Assembly: GCA_963575655.1 (NCBI GenBank) | Contig: CAUYTY010000197.1 | Location: 1-32,182, forward strand | Direction: 5' to 3' | Length of the DNA: 32,182 nt | From: Gammaproteobacteria bacterium | Lineage (GTDB): Bacteria; Pseudomonadota; Gammaproteobacteria; CAIRSR01 | Shown here: piece by piece, positions 340-20,569 of the stretch | Position numbering within the stretch: the first letter of the stretch is position 1 | How the letters are laid out: every line of letters starts with the position of its first letter | Notes under the pieces: generated by a model | The model's database searches: none | What the model saw: the letters and a program-made list of their open reading frames with translations, nothing else | What the model was told of the DNA's origin: nothing | Made by a program: the position numbers and the translations under genes

Positions 340-2454
340 TTAACATTTTTGAAACGTTTGGACTATTCCACGCAATCGTTCTAATTCTTCTCCGCTTCCC
401 ACTGAGGTAGCGGCCAGCAATCGCCGGGCAGATCCCAAAATAAACTCCAACGGTTTAGGACCAGCGTCGTAGGTACGCAACAATTCCAGGGCTTGGGTAT
501 AGGCCAATGCTGCGGGTCCAAATTGTTGCTGTGCCTCGTGTGCCTCTCCTACCCATAGCCAGGTGCCGCTGGACTCACGCTGCCGATTGGTTCGCCCTTG
601 CCAATCGAGGGCGGTGTGGTAGGCGGTGAGTGCGTCCGACCAACGCTCCTGGTCCGCATAGAGCTTTCCGATTCGATGCCAGGTACCGCCCATCTGTGGG
701 TATTGGCGGGTTCTCTCCCACCAATCCAAGGCGGTGCGGTAGGCGGTAAGTGACTCTGACCACTGCTGCTGCCCTGCCAAGACCTTTCCGATCTGAAGCC
801 AGGCCCCCCCCATTCGATGGGTTTGGCGGGTCCGCTCCCACCAATCCAACGCACTCTGGTAGGCGGTAAGCGATTGTTTTGTCGCGCGAATCTCTTCGCA
901 TACTCGACCAATGACGTGGTAGCAGGCACCGACCTCGGCCGGTCGGCCATCGTCACCAGGTTGGGCTGCGGCCTTTTCGACCAAGACCGTCAATTGCTGG
1001 GTATAGGCCAAACAACGTTCCACGGTGAGTTGTGGATTTAGCTGCCAAGGTATCGGTTCCACCAGCCCTTCTAGTGCCCCGCGAATCGCGCGAAGGTTGC
1101 CGTGGTACAGAGCCTGACGTAGCCCGCGATCTCGCAACACTGCGTGGTAGCGAATCAACTCGACCACTGCCTGTTGGGATGCTCCAGAGTCACCGCGTGC
1201 GCGAGTAACCAGATCCTGGGTCTGCTCCTTGACCTTTTTCGCCAAAACCCCGTAGAGCCGTGCCAGGTGATGATGGAAAAAACTAGCGAGACCCTCTGGG
1301 AGGCCCAGCGGAGGGGGGCGACTCAACAAATAATGACGCACCACCGGCAGGATCCTGTACCCCTCTGGTCCTTCTTCCACCAAAGCACGACGGGTTAACT
1401 CGGCCAGGGTCGCGCTTGCCCCTCGTACGGGCCAGCCTAAGACGCTTCCCACTGCTTGCCAGGCCCCTTCCAGGAATGGCCAGGGTTCACGATCCTCCAG
1501 AATGGCCAGCAATTCCAGCATGGGACGCACCGCCAGTGGCGCCCGTCCCACATAGTGATCCATTGCGGCATACTCACCAGCGCCATCGGCGGCACGGCGT
1601 CGAATCTCCGCTATGGTAGCAGTGGGATCGTCACCAGGGTCGGCCAGAAATAGAGTGAAAATATAGGGATGCCCCGCCATTTCGGTGAGAATCAACCGTT
1701 GGGTATCCCCATTCAAAGTGTTCCAGCGCAAGGGACTGCTGGGTAGCGTCAGACGCAACAGGGCGGTACGCTCGTCAGAAAACAGCGCCTCGACCGGAAA
1801 CCAATGAATTCGGTCGACCCCTCGCCCATCGCCGCCCTTGTTTTCCTCCCAGGCCAAGAGCGTAGCAGAGGGTACCTTTTGTCCGGTTCCGCCCCCAACA
1901 CGTGAGGTGCGGACCGTAAGCAGGCCACGCCAACCCGTCTGGCCAAACAATGCCGCGAGTAATTCACGGAGGTAAGGGTTGGCTATCTGTCCCTGGTTAT
2001 CCAGCACCGTCTCGCACTGATCCACAATGAGCAAACAATCGGGTCCCAGTGCCTGTGCTAGGGCGTAGGCCAAAGGTTGTGGGGCGGGTTGGACCTCGCT
2101 ACGTAGTTGCCGCGCCAGGTCCGGCTGCTCCATCTCTTGAAGGCAATCGGCGAGTTGGGAAAGCAGCCCGCCCGCGTTCGGGCAGATGCGCAGTTCTAGC
2201 CACAGAATGTGGCTAATCCGCAGGCGTGTGTTTCGTTGGCTACCGCCGCTGCCGCAGATGGCGGCCACGGCGTGGACCGAGGCGATGGTCTTACCAATCC
2301 CTCCGGGTCCGTACAGGCCTAACACCCGATGACCGGCGCGCCAAGCATCCACGAGTCGGGAGAGTAATGTCTCACGGCGCACCTCACGTCCAGTGAGGAC
2401 GGGATGGTCTGGAGAACTGTGATAGATGTGGGGAATAGTTGGGGAGTGCGACAT
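340..2454 (-). CDS. STAND-type (NB-ARC/NACHT-like) NTPase with C-terminal TPR repeats
   Basis: The 704-residue product begins with a P-loop NTPase module: Walker A GPGGIGKT at residues 49-56, Walker B LLIVDQCE at 141-148, and a sensor-like LLTVRTSR near 178-185. A helical/winged-helix region follows. The C-terminal 200 residues contain TPR-like helical pairs with a 40-residue period (ALDWWERTRQ, then GxxWxxIGKxxxxQxxW). This is the usual STAND plan of nucleotide switch plus repeat sensor, used in signal perception, transcriptional control or antiphage defence. No N-terminal effector domain (TIR, protease, nuclease) is present, only about 48 residues before the P-loop, so it may act through a partner. 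No recognisable partner is adjacent: downstream is an IS, upstream a TIR element. The ATG has no clear Shine-Dalgarno sequence. The domain class is firm; the role is not. Confidence 0.8.
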   Translation of the reverse strand: MSHSPTIPHIYHSSPDHPVLTGREVRRETLLSRLVDAWRAGHRVLGLYGPGGIGKTIASVHAVAAICGSGGSQRNTRLRISHILWLELRICPNAGGLLSQLADCLQEMEQPDLARQLRSEVQPAPQPLAYALAQALGPDCLLIVDQCETVLDNQGQIANPYLRELLAALFGQTGWRGLLTVRTSRVGGGTGQKVPSATLLAWEENKGGDGRGVDRIHWFPVEALFSDERTALLRLTLPSSPLRWNTLNGDTQRLILTEMAGHPYIFTLFLADPGDDPTATIAEIRRRAADGAGEYAAMDHYVGRAPLAVRPMLELLAILEDREPWPFLEGAWQAVGSVLGWPVRGASATLAELTRRALVEEGPEGYRILPVVRHYLLSRPPPLGLPEGLASFFHHHLARLYGVLAKKVKEQTQDLVTRARGDSGASQQAVVELIRYHAVLRDRGLRQALYHGNLRAIRGALEGLVEPIPWQLNPQLTVERCLAYTQQLTVLVEKAAAQPGDDGRPAEVGACYHVIGRVCEEIRATKQSLTAYQSALDWWERTRQTHRMGGAWLQIGKVLAGQQQWSESLTAYRTALDWWERTRQYPQMGGTWHRIGKLYADQERWSDALTAYHTALDWQGRTNRQRESSGTWLWVGEAHEAQQQFGPAALAYTQALELLRTYDAGPKPLEFILGSARRLLAATSVGSGEELERLRGIVQTFQKC
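601..870 (-). repeat. Tandem 120-bp repeat units encoding TPRs
   Basis: Within the STAND NTPase gene, the segments beginning CCAATC at 601, 721 and 841 are near copies spaced exactly 120 bases apart. Each continues into a GGTAGGCGGT-containing core. A more diverged copy seems to precede them near 481. Such DNA-level similarity between TPR units suggests recent duplication, and repeat number could change by recombination. Confidence 0.75.
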
Positions 2455-2610
2455 GCAGGGTAGGATACACCAAGCATTGGAATCCTTGGTTCAGTCCGCG
2501 TAGGAATACTGTATCGCTGGAGTGTTCCTCTCGTCGAACGACTGCTTTGAGCAACGTGACCCTTGGTAGACGAGTAGCCTTCCACCCTCCCGTTCGTGAC
2601 CGCTGCTCTG

Positions 2611-2636
2611 CGTTCCCATGCTGGAGCACGGGAACG
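2611..2636. repeat. Short imperfect palindrome in the 2455-2798 intergenic gap
   Basis: CGTTCCCATGCT is followed directly by GGAGCACGGGAACG, which pairs with it over 12 of 14 positions. Palindromes with CGTTCCCA...TGGGAACG arms are a common dispersed REP-like repeat type in environmental proteobacteria. There is no T-run in the useful direction for a terminator. The rest of 2455-2652 shows no gene I can support. Confidence 0.45.
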
Positions 2637-2652
2637 AGAAAAACTTGGATTA

Positions 2653-2792
2653 TAGGACCTACGCATTGACAAAAGTAGATTACCGAATAATCAATAGGTT
2701 ATACCGCTATTTTCGGTGGTTTCCTTGCGGGTTCTCTTCTTCGTAACTCGTTGTTATAGCTGAGTGTTTCGTTTGTCAATGCGTAAGTCCTA
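2653..2792. mobile_element. 140-bp non-autonomous TIR element (MITE-like) with GATTA target duplication
   Basis: The terminal inverted repeats at 2653-2673 and 2772-2792 match at 20 of 21 positions (TAGGACYTACGCATTGACAA and one further A). The element is flanked directly by GATTA at 2648-2652 and again at 2793-2797, a 5-bp direct repeat as expected from transposition. The 98-base interior has no ORF. The element therefore depends on a transposase encoded elsewhere. It sits one base beyond the stop codon of the FieF-like gene and upstream of the STAND NTPase gene, so it could influence the 3' end of one and the promoter of the other. Confidence 0.8.
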
Positions 2793-2798
2793 GATTAG

Positions 2799-3716
2799 TT
2801 ACCCGTCGTTTACTGGTTCCTGATGGATGTGGAGTTCAACGTTGGGAAATTGCTGTTTGATTCGATGCTCCACTTCATTGGTTACGCGGTGGGCCTCGGC
2901 CAAGGGAACGTTCCCGCAGATCTCGACCTGAAATTGAACAAATGTGGTGGTGCCAGCGCGGCGGCTCTTCAATTCACCTATCCCTCGTACAAGGGGATGC
3001 TCTCGCGCCAAACGGACAATAGCTTCACTTTCCTCTTCGGGCAACTCTCGATCCATGAGCAATTGTCCAGCCTCCCAGGCAATTTGCCCGGCACTGTAAA
3101 GGACATAGAACGCGATCCCCAGGGCAGAGACAGGGTCAACGCGCTCCCAATCGAATAACCAATCACAGGCTAAAGCGATCAATACTGCGCCGTTGGAAAG
3201 TAGATCGGTACCGTAGTGAAGAGAATCAGCACGGATCGAGACGGAATCAGTGGCACGAATTACCCTGCGCTGAAAACGCAACAGTAAAAAAGTTGCGACT
3301 ATCGAGAATATCATTACCGCGATCCCCACCCCAGTGTTTGTCAATGGCAGCGGATATCGGAGTCGGTCGATGGCCCCATTTACCAGAAACAAACCGGAGA
3401 TTCCGATGAACAGTGCCTGACCAAGTCCCGCCAGGGATTCCAGCTTACCGTGACCAAAACGATGTTCTCGGTCCGCAGGGCGTAGCGCATAGTACATCGC
3501 TACCAGGTTGGTGAGGGATGCGAGCATGTCTAAACCGGAATCGATGAGGGTGGCGAGAATACTCATCGCTCCGGTGGTAAACCACGCACCAAACTTGATC
3601 AAGACCAGCACCAGCGCGGTAGCTACCGAGGCGCGGGTGGCACGGCGCAGGAGAATGGCTGCCTGCTCAGGAGAAATAACCGAGGGAATAAGTTCATCAA
3701 CGGGTAATTCGGTCAT
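2799..3716 (-). CDS. fieF: Cation diffusion facilitator, FieF-like divalent metal/proton antiporter
   Basis: This 305-residue inner-membrane protein exports Zn(II)/Fe(II)-type cations in exchange for protons. It has the CDF transmembrane core followed by a cytoplasmic C-terminal metal-sensing domain from about residue 215. The two halves of the transport site are visible as D59-x3-D63 (LIDSGLDMLASLTNLV) and H167-x3-D171 (ADSLHYGTD). These correspond to the DxxxD and HxxxD pairs of E. coli FieF, and the length (FieF about 300) agrees. The frame stays open up to a TTG at 3776, but the ATG at 3716 is preceded by AAGG at good spacing and gives the family length, so I chose it. The gene is divergent from the chemoreceptor at 3965. 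No metal-dependent operator was recognised. Confidence 0.93.
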   Translation of the reverse strand: MTELPVDELIPSVISPEQAAILLRRATRASVATALVLVLIKFGAWFTTGAMSILATLIDSGLDMLASLTNLVAMYYALRPADREHRFGHGKLESLAGLGQALFIGISGLFLVNGAIDRLRYPLPLTNTGVGIAVMIFSIVATFLLLRFQRRVIRATDSVSIRADSLHYGTDLLSNGAVLIALACDWLFDWERVDPVSALGIAFYVLYSAGQIAWEAGQLLMDRELPEEESEAIVRLAREHPLVRGIGELKSRRAGTTTFVQFQVEICGNVPLAEAHRVTNEVEHRIKQQFPNVELHIHQEPVNDG

Positions 3717-3839
3717 GGCACGCCTTATAGATTGTGGTCTGCAGCCAATCGATGAGGGGGCAGGGAAATCACCCAACCCTTATTTTCCAGTTTTTTCGAT
3801 AGGATGAAAATCCTGTTTATCAACAGATGGTTATTCATT

Positions 3840-3868
3840 ATCGCTGGTCAGCGATTTACTTTTTTTTG
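3840..3868 (+). promoter_or_regulatory. Hairpin with downstream T-tract in the fieF/chemoreceptor divergent region
   Basis: ATCGCTGGTCAGCGAT at 3840-3855 is a perfect palindrome followed by TTACTTTTTTTT. In the plus direction it resembles a small intrinsic terminator, but no plus-strand gene lies upstream. It may instead be an operator or an attenuator in the leader of the chemoreceptor gene. The function is undetermined. Confidence 0.3.
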
Positions 3869-3964
3869 GTGGGATCCCTACAATACTGCTAGCTTTTGCC
3901 GGTACCCTCGGGTTTGATACCCATCAGAATCTCTGTTCGATTTTACCTTGGCGGTGGAGTGGCT

Positions 3965-5947
3965 ATGTCTCATACTAATCATAATGATAATCGTTTTTCC
4001 CTCCGATATAAGGTAATACTCGCAGTAGCAGGAGTATATTTTCTTGCGTTGATAGTGGTTACCCTAATATCTATTTCGGATCGACGTACCAATCTGGTGC
4101 GCTACGTCCAAGAACATGTGGAGGAAGTTGCCAACAGCTACTTCGATAGCCTGAATGTGCTCATGCTGTCAGGAGGCATTTCTCGCCGCGGAATCCTCGA
4201 GGAAAAGCTGCGGGCACGTTCGGGGGTCGAAGAGGTACGTACCATACGTAGTGATGTCGTCAATCAGATGTTCAAAACCCCCGGCCTAGATGGTCCGCAG
4301 GATGATTGGGATCGCCGCGCCCTGGGAGGTGAACAACAAGCCCACCTCACTGAGGATGCCACCGGGCGACATCTGACAGTACTCATCCCGATGCAGTCCT
4401 CCACGAATACACGTGGCACTAATTGCACAACTTGCCACACCGATACGGCGGGCCAAACTCTGGGGGCTGTGCGGGTGACCTACTCTTTGTCCCCCCACGA
4501 TGCTGCTTTTTCGCGGGAAACCTTGGATACGGTCGGGTCATCAGTGGTCTTGTTGGCTATTGGCATCGGGTTGGTGGGGTGGTGGTTGCGGTGGATTATC
4601 CTGCTGCCCATCTGTCGCCTCCAGGATACATTGTTGGTCATTGAGCGTGACGGCGACTTTAACGAGCGTGTAAAGATTGTTAGCAACGATGAATTAGGGG
4701 TCACCGCCGACGTTATCAACCGCCTGCTCGCAAAGTTCCACAATATAATAAAGGATATAGCCGAGACTACGGTGCAGCTCTCTGCGCAGGCCAACATGAT
4801 GTCTTCCCATTCGGAAGAGACCAACCAGCGCGTTACCCGTCAACAGGGTGAGCTTGAGCAGTTAGCCACCGCCATCAACGAGATGTCTAGTACTGTCCAA
4901 GAGGTGGCACACAATACCGCTTCTGCTGCCGATGCCACTCAGCAGGCCAATCAACAGGCAAATCAGGGGCATCAGGTGGTAGAGGAGACCATCGCCGCGA
5001 TTGGTACCCTGGTCCAGGAGGTGAAAGGGGCTGCGACTGTTATCCATCAGCTTGAGCAGGAGAGCGCCAATATCGGTACGGTCTTGGATGTGATTCGAGG
5101 GATCGCCGATCAGACCAATCTGCTCGCCCTGAATGCCGCCATCGAGGCCGCGCGGGCAGGTGAACAGGGCCGCGGCTTTGCCGTAGTGGCCGATGAGGTG
5201 AGAACCCTAGCCTCGCGTACCCAGCACTCGACGCGCGAGATCCAGGAACTCATTCAGCGCCTTCAGAACGGTGCGAGTCAGGCCGTGGCGGCGATGGAGC
5301 AGGGTAGCCGAACTGCCGAGGCGGGGATGGAGCAGGCCGCAAACGCAGGTACTGCTCTGGAGGAGATCCGCCGCGCCGTAGCGATCCTCAATGACCTCAA
5401 TATCCAGATCGCCACGGCTACCGAGGAGCAAAGTGCAGTGGCCGAGGAGATCAACCGTAACGTCTCCAATATCTCGACATTCGCCCACGATACCGCTCAC
5501 CAGACAGAATCATCCAGTAACGAAATGTATAATTTCTCGGAGAGTTTGCGTCGCCTTACCTCCAAATATACCACCAAGGATCAGAATCGTTTCGACTTTG
5601 AAGCCGCCAAAATCGCTCATCTGGCCTGGAAAACCCGCCTACGTTCCTTTCTGGATGGAACCGGTCCGCTTACCCGCGATCAGGCGGTTTCCCACCACCA
5701 CTGTCAGCTTGGCAAGTGGTATTACTCCGAAGGGTTAGAAAAATACGGCCATATCTCTGCAATGCGTCAGATCGAGCAGCCCCACGCCGAACTTCACAAT
5801 ACCATCAAAGAGGTACTGCGCCTCAAAGAAACGGGTAATATCAAGGGGGCGGAGGCGGAATATACCAAGGTGGAGGCCATTTCAAAGCACATTGTTGAGT
5901 TGTTGGGTAAGGTTCAGGCTAATATTGAAAGTATCCACTTAAAATGA
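3965..5947 (+). CDS. Methyl-accepting chemotaxis protein with periplasmic CXXCH (heme c) site and C-terminal CZB zinc domain
   Basis: The 660-residue receptor has TM1 at about residues 16-38, a periplasmic sensor to about 190, TM2 at about 191-216 and then HAMP. The conserved kinase-control hairpin lies around 381-403 ([20 protein letters not shown]). A CZB domain occupies about 551-650. The sensor contains CTTCH at 154-158, a c-type heme attachment motif, in a context ([11 protein letters not shown] downstream) seen in heme-binding chemoreceptor sensors. The CZB domain shows the expected 3His/1Cys zinc set: candidates are H552 (HLAW), C580 (HHCQLGKWY), H607 and H611 (PHAELH). Known CZB domains sense zinc and hypochlorite-type oxidants in the cytoplasm. 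Upstream in-frame residues begin with TTG at 3896; the ATG at 3965 has GGTGGAG 5-6 bases ahead and is preferred. A single-gene unit, ended by the terminator at 5965. Confidence 0.95.
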
Positions 5948-11825: not shown

Positions 11826-13388
11826 CTAAGACCTATTGCGAAAACGACGCCAGTCAATCCCCAACTTGCGCATACGTGAACGAAGGGTGTGTGGGTTAAT
11901 TCCCAAAAGCAATGCAGCACCGTAGGGTCCCTCGATCCGGCCGTGAGTTCGAGTAAGAACCTCCTCAATGTGATGCACGATAGCAGTATCTAAGGCGGCA
12001 ACATCCTGACTGTTGCTAGGTCGGGCCTGAAATACGGATAACTCGTGGGAAAGGGGCGGCCCATGTTTCGTCGGTCGCGGGTTTGTCCCCAAGGCTCCTG
12101 CGATTTCAAGACACCGACCGTCCCCAAGGATGGCGGCCCGCTCAATCACTGTCGCTAGCTCGCGGATATTTCCCGGCCATTGGTAACCCAGCAACAGCGC
12201 AATATCATCTTGGGTAGGAGCAAGGGCCGATCCTCCCAAACGCATTCCAATCCGCAACGCAAAGTGAGCCGCCAGTGCCGGCAGATCCTCCATGTGTTCC
12301 CGGAGTGGGGGGAGGCGGATGGGGAAAACGCTGATGCGATACCAAAGATCCTCCCGAAAAGCGCCAGTCGCCACCATGGCGGGCATGTCTCGATGGGTAG
12401 CCGCGACAATTCGTACATCTACCGTGAGGGTGCGCTGTCCACCAACTCGCTCAAACGATCCGTCCTGAAGGATTCGTAGCAGACGTACTTGCGCGGCTAG
12501 CGGAAGTTCCGCCACCTCGTCCAGGAACAAGGTCCCCCCATCAGCCCTCTCGAACCATCCCTTGCGGGTGCTAACCGCACCGGTAAAGCTACCCCGCTCG
12601 TGACCGAAGAGTTCCGAGTCCACTAGCTCGGGGGGAATCGCACCGCAGTTGACCCGTACAATCGGACCTCCCACCCGGCGGGAGCGTGAGTGAATAGCAC
12701 GTGCAACCACTTCCTTACCCGAACCGGTCTCCCCCAGGATTAGCACGGGGGCATCGGTGGGGGCCACCTGCTCTACTCGTCCCATTACTGACCTTAATCC
12801 GGAGTCAGCACCGACGATCGACTCCAAGATCTCTTGCCGTTGGAGCCGTGACAGTAGTGCGCGATTCTCTGCCTCCACTGCCTCGCGAAGCCTAGCCAAC
12901 TCGTGGAAGCGTCGATCATTTTCCAGTGCTACCGTGAACGGCTCCAGCAAGGTCTGCATGATGGCTACGTGTTCGTCCAAGAAATGATGTGGCGCTCGCG
13001 TAATCATAAGCAAAATACCTACCTGGCCATCTTCATTAACGAGCGGGCCGGCCAGAATTGACCCGGTAACCTCCGCTGGCACCAGAATATTGAGCAACGA
13101 TGCCGATTTAGGTACAGATTCGTGGATGACAATCCCTTGTCGAAACCAGGCGGACAACCGCTCCAAATCTTCCGGGCGGCAATCGGTGCGCGCCTGTTGT
13201 GGAATGGTACCCGGTCGACAGAGGCTCGCCGCAACCGTTTCAATCAGTGAGCGCTCGGGATCGAAACGACGGATCATGACTAAATCCACGGGAAAACGGC
13301 GACTGAGCACCGGGGCCGTACGGGATATCGCCTCGTCGATCTCAATATGGCGGCAAACCTCTCGCCAAATATCTAGTAGCAAGTACAT
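11826..13388 (-). CDS. Sigma-54-dependent transcriptional activator (GAF, AAA+, Fis-type HTH)
   Basis: The 520-residue bacterial enhancer-binding protein has a GAF-like sensor at about residues 1-160, a coiled linker, an AAA+ domain and a C-terminal Fis-type helix-turn-helix (GAALLLGINPHTLRSRMRKL, about 490-510). Key motifs are Walker A GETGSGKE (219-226), the sigma-54 contact loop GSFTGA (266-271; the usual GAFTGA with Ala to Ser) and Walker B GGTLFLDEV (284-292). There is no receiver domain, so the GAF domain probably binds a small ligand or gas, as in NorR/FhlA-type regulators. The frame continues four codons to a GTG at 13400; I prefer the ATG at 13388, with AAGAG just before it. It is divergent from the gene at 13419. 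A strong sigma-54 promoter match lies about 1 kb away at 14443, in front of the sulfate transporter, a plausible target. Confidence 0.92.
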   Translation of the reverse strand: MYLLLDIWREVCRHIEIDEAISRTAPVLSRRFPVDLVMIRRFDPERSLIETVAASLCRPGTIPQQARTDCRPEDLERLSAWFRQGIVIHESVPKSASLLNILVPAEVTGSILAGPLVNEDGQVGILLMITRAPHHFLDEHVAIMQTLLEPFTVALENDRRFHELARLREAVEAENRALLSRLQRQEILESIVGADSGLRSVMGRVEQVAPTDAPVLILGETGSGKEVVARAIHSRSRRVGGPIVRVNCGAIPPELVDSELFGHERGSFTGAVSTRKGWFERADGGTLFLDEVAELPLAAQVRLLRILQDGSFERVGGQRTLTVDVRIVAATHRDMPAMVATGAFREDLWYRISVFPIRLPPLREHMEDLPALAAHFALRIGMRLGGSALAPTQDDIALLLGYQWPGNIRELATVIERAAILGDGRCLEIAGALGTNPRPTKHGPPLSHELSVFQARPSNSQDVAALDTAIVHHIEEVLTRTHGRIEGPYGAALLLGINPHTLRSRMRKLGIDWRRFRNRS

Positions 13389-13418
13389 AACTCTTCTCAC
13401 CGCACAACAGGTATCAAT

Positions 13419-18781: not shown

Positions 18782-20428
18782 TCACTGTCCCCCGCGCACC
18801 AACCGCACGGCGTAAGCATCGTTACGGCTGCCCCAGTAGTCGTAACCACCGTCGAAACTGACGAACCACGCGTAGTTCGAACTACCAGCGACCGGAGAAC
18901 CGGACCAGAAACTCGACGCTGGGGTATTTGGAAATGCTTCCTGATCAATGGCAGGACGTTGGTAATTTCCCGAACATATTTCATTTACTTTCATAGCACT
19001 GCCAAATACGCCAGTACTACTGCAATAGACCAAGCTTTTTAGTTCTTCATGGGTAGGTACACGCCAACCATTCTGTGTAGCAGGGAGATCGTCCCATTTA
19101 TACTCTTGTGGTGTGCCCGAGCAAGAGCTTCCGGTCCAAGTCTGTCCTTCGGCGCAACGTTTCCAACGTAGCTGGGTCTGGATATCAGTTACCGTACCAT
19201 CGCCGTGATCACGATAGCGACCATGAATTAATTGTCCCGTACTTACTTTTATCCTCGACGTTTGAATTCCCACTCGTGCCTCGGCCTCTTGACGGCGTTG
19301 TTCCGCTTCTCGGCGCTGCTGTTCCATCTCTACCAAGCGTGCCTCCTCCCTCTTTCGCTTTCCCTCCACTTCGGCGAGGCGCGCTCCTTCTTCCGCCTCG
19401 CGGCGCTGCTGTTCCAATTCCTGACGCTGTTTCTCGATTTCCACAAGGCGGGCCTCTTCCGCCTTGCGTTGCTCCTCTAATGCCGACAAGCGACTCTTTT
19501 CCGGGATCGGCGTGATCCCTTGAGGAATATCCTGTTGGGCAAGAGTCGTTGCTGGTTGTTTTCCACCGGATGGACTAGAAAAGTAAAAATGTTTCTGCAC
19601 GGTTTTCGGACCATTTACATAGGGCGTCTGCCGTCGATTACTCTTTTCTTCGACCCATTCACTGGCCACCGTGAGCACACCATCCAGGCTCAGGTCCTTA
19701 CCCGCGAAGGCCACACGCAGTCCCGCAGTAAATAGACCATTGCGTTCCTGACCGTCCTCCGCTGTATTACCAGGATCCGTGGCATAAACGATCACGGTGC
19801 CCTTGGGCATGTCACTGGGTGGCGCTAAACCGCGCCCGCCACCACCCCGAAATTCGCCAGTAAAGGGATTATTCCGACAGGCATCGAGCATAACGATATT
19901 AATCTTGCTCTTGGCATTGTCCATTTCATCGAGGGGATAATTGAGACTCACTCCTTCCTCGGCCACCTCTGCTAGGCTATGCACCGTGGCATCCACCGGC
20001 ATCAAGTAGTTCTGATTCTTACTCTGAATACCATGCCCCGCGAAATAAAACAGAGCGACCTCGGCGTTGCCGGCTTTGCGTCCCAACGTAGCGATGGCCT
20101 CCTTCATTGCACGCCGTGTCATATTCTTTCCGGTGATGACCTCGAAACCAAAACCACGCAAGGCTTTGGAAACATCCTCGGCGTCGTTAGTTGGATTTCG
20201 GAGCTTGGTCAGATGATTAGTGTCTTGGTAATCGCCATTACCGATGACCAAGGCCACCCGCGTCCCTGTTCGTAATTCCGGTCGCTCTCGCTGTGGGCTA
20301 TGGTCTTCCTCGCCGGACCCAGCAGACGTGGTCAATCCCCCAGCAGTACCCCGTTGCAATTCGTCTACGCATCCGACGAACGCCACACAAAGCAGAATTA
20401 TTAGAAGTAGATTCATTCGTTGCCACAT
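18782..20428 (-). CDS. Caspase-like (C14) lipoprotein with coiled coil and C-terminal DUF1566 domain
   Basis: From the ATG at 20428 the product has 548 residues. It begins with a lipoprotein signal (NLLLIILLCVAFVGC, lipidated Cys near residue 20; +2 residue Val, so probably outer membrane). A caspase p20-like domain spans about 55-285, with catalytic His about 132 (YFAGHGIQ) and Cys about 184 (MLDACRNNPF). A highly charged coiled coil runs from about 314 to 384, and a DUF1566 (C-type-lectin-like) domain from about 402 to 548. GAGG six bases before this ATG supports it. The frame stays open 47 codons further upstream to 20569, but those residues belong to an unrelated ATPase fragment. The last 35 residues have NNY-rich codons at most positions, as in DGR variable regions. 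Protease and binding domains suggest a surface sensor or effector; the role is inferred. Confidence 0.85.
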   Translation of the reverse strand: MWQRMNLLLIILLCVAFVGCVDELQRGTAGGLTTSAGSGEEDHSPQRERPELRTGTRVALVIGNGDYQDTNHLTKLRNPTNDAEDVSKALRGFGFEVITGKNMTRRAMKEAIATLGRKAGNAEVALFYFAGHGIQSKNQNYLMPVDATVHSLAEVAEEGVSLNYPLDEMDNAKSKINIVMLDACRNNPFTGEFRGGGGRGLAPPSDMPKGTVIVYATDPGNTAEDGQERNGLFTAGLRVAFAGKDLSLDGVLTVASEWVEEKSNRRQTPYVNGPKTVQKHFYFSSPSGGKQPATTLAQQDIPQGITPIPEKSRLSALEEQRKAEEARLVEIEKQRQELEQQRREAEEGARLAEVEGKRKREEARLVEMEQQRREAEQRRQEAEARVGIQTSRIKVSTGQLIHGRYRDHGDGTVTDIQTQLRWKRCAEGQTWTGSSCSGTPQEYKWDDLPATQNGWRVPTHEELKSLVYCSSTGVFGSAMKVNEICSGNYQRPAIDQEAFPNTPASSFWSGSPVAGSSNYAWFVSFDGGYDYWGSRNDAYAVRLVRGGQ

Positions 20429-20434
20429 CGTGCC

Positions 20435-20569
20435 CTCGCCACCCGTGATAGTGCATGCAGAATATAGAACTTTCAGAAAATGAGTTTTACCCGTACCATT
20501 GGCGCCAATCAAGATATTGACATCCGGTGAAAAGGTTTGATCACAGCACAGCCGAATGCTGTGAAACAT
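20435..20569 (-). pseudogene. Truncated N-terminus of an AAA-type ATPase gene
   Basis: The first 38 or so codons from the ATG at 20569 encode FSPDVNILIGANGTGKTHFL, with Walker A GANGTGKT. That is the typical start of OLD/AAA_21-type ATPases. The similarity ends around LYSA, after which the sequence turns into the leader of the caspase-like lipoprotein gene in the same frame. There is no Walker B or other ATPase part nearby. It is best read as the left-over 5' end of an ATPase gene cut by a rearrangement that brought in the caspase-like gene. A genuine fusion is unlikely because it would bury the lipoprotein signal. Confidence 0.6.

Follow-up and report, generated by a model that had tools for sequence, protein, structure and literature searches.

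A chemoreceptor gene combining a putative periplasmic heme-c Cache domain with a cytoplasmic CZB domain in a gammaproteobacterium

The window (the whole stretch of DNA that was analysed, 32,182 nucleotides from a gammaproteobacterium) carries on its forward strand a chemoreceptor gene at 3965 to 5947, with its ATG at 3965 and its stop codon ending at 5947, encoding 660 amino acids in the order Cache-HAMP-MCP-CZB, with a putative heme-c site in the first domain. All features of the receptor lie on the same strand. A first transmembrane (TM) helix at approximately residues 16-38 (4010 to 4078) is indicated by hydropathy and by helix 2-53 of the sensor model. It is followed by a periplasmic single-Cache-like sensor domain at about residues 39-186 (4079 to 4522), recognised from the predicted model, from Foldseek and from a second structural alignment, and by a second TM helix at approximately residues 187-207 (4523 to 4585; hydropathy and model). 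The cytoplasmic part comprises a HAMP domain at residues 207-257 (4583 to 4735; PF00672, E 1e-8), an MCP signalling domain (MCPsignal) at residues 322-504 (4928 to 5476; PF00015, E 3e-45) and a CZB domain at residues 552-618 (5618 to 5818; PF13682). The Pfam matches to MCPsignal and HAMP, together with the two TM helices seen by hydropathy, make the product a methyl-accepting chemotaxis protein. A preliminary description of this DNA had placed a CTTCH motif in the periplasmic sensor, and this placement holds: the motif, a putative heme-c attachment site (C154, C157 and H158; residues 154-158, 4424 to 4438), lies between the two hydrophobic TM stretches, which flank some 150 residues. In the source genome, 53 places match parts of the receptor, the receptor itself included, and PF01578, the family of cytochrome c assembly proteins, is matched three times, so that chemotaxis and heme attachment are both plausible.

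The divergent gene at 2802 to 3716 on the reverse strand encodes a FieF-like CDF cation-efflux protein. It exceeds the cut-off of TIGR01297, with 215.1 bits against the CDF superfamily cut-off of 82.35, but falls short of the FieF equivalog cut-offs (314.6 against 447 bits and 308 against 420 bits). The description of this neighbour as a zinc/iron exporter is thus likely rather than firm. The adjacency of receptor and CDF gene was also said to fit a metal or redox theme; it is kept in a congener, but was not observed beyond the genus. A constant partnership of the sensor with FieF was rejected, there being one FieF-like match in 80 GTDB loci, and that non-adjacent. Elsewhere in the window, a sigma-54 activator at 11826 to 13400 (reverse strand) resembles the NifA, FhlA and NorR models but is below every curated cut-off shown; its identification as NorR was rejected because it is below the NorR cut-off. 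The reverse strand also carries, at 18785 to 20569, a caspase-like Peptidase_C14 domain fused to an Lcl C-terminal domain and, at 340 to 2454, a protein of 704 amino acids with a P-loop-like GPGGIGKT, repeated TPR-like segments near its C-terminus and one weak NCBIfam match.

Conservation of the CTTCH motif was followed in two sets of relatives, both gathered by sensor similarity without use of CXXCH. The first came from 369 genomes of the class, drawn from a larger group; matches, weak ones included, were found in 54 of these genomes, and all 67 that were listed (the 30 best and 37 weaker ones) keep CXXCH. The second came from a scan of GTDB contigs, in which 276 stretches matched the sensor and the best 80 loci were taken; the motif is present in all 81 sensor open reading frames (ORFs) of these loci. 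The scan relied on the pattern Y[FL]D[SG][LI]N[TA][ML]M, to which the window protein does not conform, and its closest relatives may have been missed. Such conservation in both sets rules out CTTCH as a chance motif. Poor conservation of the motif among orthologues, named beforehand as the observation that would count against a heme site, is the opposite of what these sets contain.

A second candidate ligand emerges from the same relatives. Alignment A1, made from the 30 best class loci after five near copies had been removed by hand (25 rows), has invariant residues that include D46, N49, M52, R77, R80, C139, C142 and H143 in domain numbering, to which 15 is added for protein numbering, giving Met67, Cys154, Cys157 and His158. 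Met67 (4163 to 4165) is proposed as the distal heme ligand on the strength of its conservation and its alignment with Met60 of 3b47. Its invariance in all 25 rows of A1 is free evidence, unlike that in the pattern-picked GTDB loci, where Met67, Asp61 and Asn64 are invariant in 112 of 112 rows (101 distinct members) partly by construction of the scan pattern. Among the 37 weaker class matches, all with CXXCH, a loosely defined D..N..M motif holding Met67 is kept in 20 and absent from 17. Met67 is at most a mark of the nearer subfamily, and Met ligation would be a trait of that subfamily. When the A1 profile was compared with the PDB, no solved heme sensor gave a significant sequence match on its own; the best was GSU0582 (3b47), with a weak E of 0.029 and CXXCH aligned. 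In this alignment Met67 stands opposite chain residue 26, which by offset is Met60, with His143 at chain residue 109 (numbering from the accessible part of PMC8396549).

A tree of 99 distinct sensors sets the window genus apart, as an isolated pair with full support at the end of a long branch. A subgroup of 47 of the 99 rows (L024, L025, L027 and similar) has no LALNA stretch in its ORFs, a few of which are cut or truncated; it occupies one part of the tree, alongside a few LALNA rows. Two distant relatives with CXXCH (L293 and L294) are fused to GGDEF-motif proteins, and several other distant relatives are without the MCP motifs that were searched.

The AlphaFold2 model of the sensor (pLDDT 91.7) has strands 119-129 and 150-159 flanking CXXCH at 139-143 (domain numbering). 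This is the arrangement expected of sCache_heme domains, a Cache fold with CXXCH inserted between two core strands, although other Cache domains also match the model well. The top two Foldseek matches are two chains of the c-type heme sensor GSU0935 (3b42; E 2.5e-5 and 1.6e-4), with a poor rmsd of 14 Å and 16% identity in the fold alignment. The second structural alignment matched Tll0287 (5b82) with Z 9.5 and rmsd 3.9 over 120 residues, where it stands among many Cache domains and is outscored by the non-heme Cache domains of WalK (Z 11 to 13.7). The model thus supports a Cache fold more firmly than a heme-Cache, and what is predicted is a Cache fold with the ligand residues of heme Cache domains. 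No Pfam model matches the window sensor domain, and this includes PF11845, the Tll0287 model, which matches 4 of 25 sensor subfamily members weakly (best E 3e-4) and has no match in the four genomes of the window's family. Canonical PF11845 membership was rejected because neither the window protein nor its genome family has a match. The sensor appears to fold like sCache_heme and may work alike, but it lies outside the PF11845 model. Motif and model together suggest that CTTCH carries a covalent c-type heme.

At the other end of the protein, the claim of a complete three-histidine, one-cysteine CZB set is borne out. PF13682 matches over its full profile (1 to 64 of 64; E 2e-16, 60.6 bits against a curated cut-off of 29.4), and the predicted ligands H552, C580, H607 and H611 align with those of E. 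coli DgcZ. A profile of 27 CZB sequences (A2) matches DgcZ (3t9o) with E 7e-5 and with the H-C-H-H ligands aligned, whereas phmmer with the window CZB alone found nothing useful in the PDB. The invariant A2 columns are H18, C46, H73 and H77, an invariance that is by construction, since the A2 rows and the CZB ORFs were picked with a motif containing the zinc ligands. The model (pLDDT 90) is a four-helix domain, and Foldseek ranks 3t9o first with TM 0.65 and a weak E of 0.11, returning nothing at E <= 0.001. Zinc binding by this domain is predicted from the ligand pattern, and all four ligands are intact both here and in the congener.

The receptor of the congener is split. In this genome (locus L051) the receptor spans 3420 to 5408, with the sensor in an ORF at 3420 to 4097 and the MCP-CZB part in another frame at 4152 to 5408, where the CZB domain scores 61.5 bits. 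The split is either real decay or an assembly error, and it weakens the case for selection on the fusion. The earlier claim that a single receptor joins a CXXCH sensor with a complete CZB set is true of the window gene, and the congener keeps both parts but spreads them over two frames. Among other sensor ORFs, a CZB motif is found in none of 81 in the GTDB loci, none of 29 at the other class loci and none of the 37 weaker matches in the class. These negatives come from a motif search, preceded for the class loci by inspection by eye, rather than from Pfam, and some sensor ORFs are cut at the 3' end (4 of 81, 1 of 30, this being L041, and 3 of 37).

From the CZB side, 91 ORFs were read, representing 90 distinct places among the matches listed (L001 and L154 are the same). 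These were 30 loci and 60 regions picked by hand with open frames of at least about 480 amino acids; two more listed CZB places lie outside those 60 regions, one of them being a place in the window genome that was covered as L054. CXXCH is present at three of the 90 places, namely in the window protein and in L168 and L193, and in all three it lies between two predicted TM helices. The latter two (L168 at 1365 to 3461 in genome G146, L193 at 1328 to 3427 in genome G121) belong to two other gammaproteobacterial families and have the order PF11845-HAMP-MCPsignal-CZB, with PF11845 matching at E 2.5e-28 and 2.7e-24, respectively. The sensors of these two share 47% identity and have no significant similarity to the window sensor by BLASTP, in which only L193 matched (E 0.048). 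Since these canonical sensors are unlike that of the window, heme-c Cache and CZB domains have been joined with at least two heme subfamilies. The pairing, put forward as noteworthy and as an architecture to be sought in relatives, is rare but not unique, recurring in two other families. The MCP core was set aside as a guide to the origin of the fusion: its nearest match is the congener (84%), followed almost equally by a heme-type core (52.6%) and a CZB-type core (51.8%).

It could be that the CZB domain is an evolutionary hitch-hiker, acquired by domain shuffling and adding little, which would leave the receptor as just another heme-c chemoreceptor. The absence of the CZB motif from the other sensor ORFs and the frequency of CZB in the class (116 of 369 genomes) speak for it, although some of those ORFs are cut and the congener has its CZB in a separate ORF. 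We think this quite improbable; neither congener has lost any of the four zinc ligands, and two other families pair CZB with another heme subfamily. Such recurrence suggests that it is useful to have both domains together.

Each part has been described before; a heme c outside combined with a zinc site inside, however, appears to be rare and little studied. Within the body of papers searched, the top-ranked results include none with both DUF3365 and CZB, and no title or abstract opening describing the pairing. The review PMC8846402 discusses CZB in DgcZ, and in its accessible part the ‘heme c’ wording proves to be ‘heme cofactor’ or ‘heme coordination’ and the pairing is not described. As far as the available text of PMC8262984 goes, globin and PAS/Cache domains are listed among the partners of CZB receptors, so that a heme partner for CZB may have precedent.

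The outer domain was thought able to read redox state or a gaseous ligand, and the fold matches to GSU0935 and Tll0287 would provide precedent for such an input. A 2026 preprint (PMC12889525), in which the words ‘CZB’ and ‘zinc’ are absent, describes in its accessible part slow NO release from a membrane sCache_heme of Pseudomonas azotoformans and argues that sensors joined to signalling modules are NO sensors. On this model the heme would be a selective NO sensor and the CZB domain an ancillary tail. Several named carriers of the sensor, Denitrificimonas and Thiopseudomonas denitrificans among them, have names that point to denitrification, which would suit an NO chemoreceptor, and the GSU sensors are reported to bind NO too (PMC8396549, in part). 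However, neither cd1 nor Cu nitrite reductase has a match in the window genome, so NO from its own denitrification is unsupported as the signal. Across the 369 genomes, which are phylogenetically non-independent, the window-type sensor has no association with cd1 (9 of 54 genomes with the sensor against 64 of 315 without; OR 0.78, p 0.71), whereas PF11845 is strongly associated with it (57 of 155 against 16 of 214; OR 7.2, p 5e-12), the cd1 set being the 73 genomes with a best E < 1e-60 and cd1 being only one NO source. CZB is likewise associated with cd1 (OR 4.1, p 2e-7), and among genomes holding CZB or the sensor, the sensor is under-represented with cd1 (OR 0.32, p 0.008). The co-occurrence of PF11845 and cd1 bears on the NO-sensor proposal for the PF11845 family. 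Other NO sources or NO-producing neighbours are possible, but we regard a dedicated NO receptor as unlikely here.

The lack of a tie to cd1 leans instead to redox-linked Met release as in GSU0582 and GSU0935, for which redox-linked release of Met60 and binding of NO and CO are described in the consulted part of PMC8396549; NO from elsewhere could still contribute. Taken to its limit, this becomes pure redox taxis, with the oxidation state of the heme as the sole outside signal and the CZB domain tuning gain with cytoplasmic redox by way of zinc availability, as has been proposed for Salmonella McpA. The predicted Met/His ligation resembles that of GSU0935 with its redox-linked Met release, and a 2026 preprint (PMC13370339, available in part) proposes that outside redox is signalled by the zinc pool, which CZB reads. 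This McpA model is a preprint account of a TlpD-like receptor, however, and Met67 is absent in some distant relatives. Redox as the only outside signal is possible, though we lean against it.

The reading that we prefer, at a probability of roughly 0.58, is a dual-input transmembrane chemoreceptor, in which a periplasmic redox/NO heme signal and a cytoplasmic zinc signal meet at the HAMP-proximal coiled coil. Heme c would be held covalently by Cys154 and Cys157, with His158 as proximal ligand; the distal ligand, an exchangeable one, would most likely be Met67. When the heme is oxidised, or binds NO or another diatomic ligand, Met67 would be released, and TM2 and HAMP would relay the shift to the coiled coil governing CheA. 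The C-terminal CZB domain would hold Zn2+ by its three histidines and one cysteine and, by analogy with TlpD, the CZB domains would sit astride that coiled coil at its base, immediately under HAMP. In TlpD the CZB domains straddle the MA coiled coil and the zinc-bound form is thought to be kinase-ON (PMC12871147, in the part available); by the same analogy, loss of zinc through depletion or through oxidation of C580 may lower CheA activity. Both inputs would then converge at the HAMP-proximal end of one bundle, and swimming would respond to the combined periplasmic redox/NO and cytoplasmic zinc/oxidant state. A natural protein with both domains poses the question of how the state of the heme outside and that of the zinc inside combine: by addition, by competition or by gating one another.

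A more speculative extension is a cross-membrane ‘comparator’, in which the heme would report periplasmic redox or NO, the CZB domain would read cytoplasmic zinc as an internal redox proxy, and the cell would steer by the difference. The adjacent CDF exporter would set the zinc pool that CZB reads, making a sensing-and-efflux unit, and the heme-c/CZB pairing would have arisen on two or more occasions, with different heme-Cache subfamilies as the source. As a whole this seems rather doubtful to us.

Among known systems, GSU0582 and GSU0935 of Geobacter sulfurreducens share with the window receptor two TM helices, a periplasmic Cache/PAS-like heme-c domain, HAMP and MCP (PMC8396549, in part); CXXCH and the Met60 position are in register in GSU0582, and GSU0935 is the top fold match. 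They differ in their cytoplasmic part, which is HAMP then MCP with no mention of CZB in the accessible text of that paper, and GSU0935 is distant in sequence. DcrA of Desulfovibrio vulgaris is likewise a methyl-accepting protein with a periplasmic c-type heme, proposed to sense oxygen or redox, but it has a cytoplasmic PAS domain, and the same partly available source does not mention CZB for it. The sCache_heme family (DUF3365/Tll0287, PF11845) resembles the window sensor in its Cache-like fold, in the CXXCH between two strands and in being joined to a signalling module, whereas its model barely reaches the window's subfamily and is absent from the window's family. The zinc half has its counterparts in TlpD, McpA and DgcZ, all with a three-histidine, one-cysteine CZB domain, which in TlpD-like receptors is C-terminal to the MCP coiled coil; those receptors, unlike the window protein, are soluble. 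Membrane-bound CZB chemoreceptors with 4HB, globin or PAS/Cache domains are described in PMC8262984, whose accessible text has no ‘heme’ words. L168 and L193 differ from the window receptor in their canonical Tll0287-like sensor, and match it in the order of functions, with CXXCH between two predicted TM helices and a CZB domain at the C-terminus.
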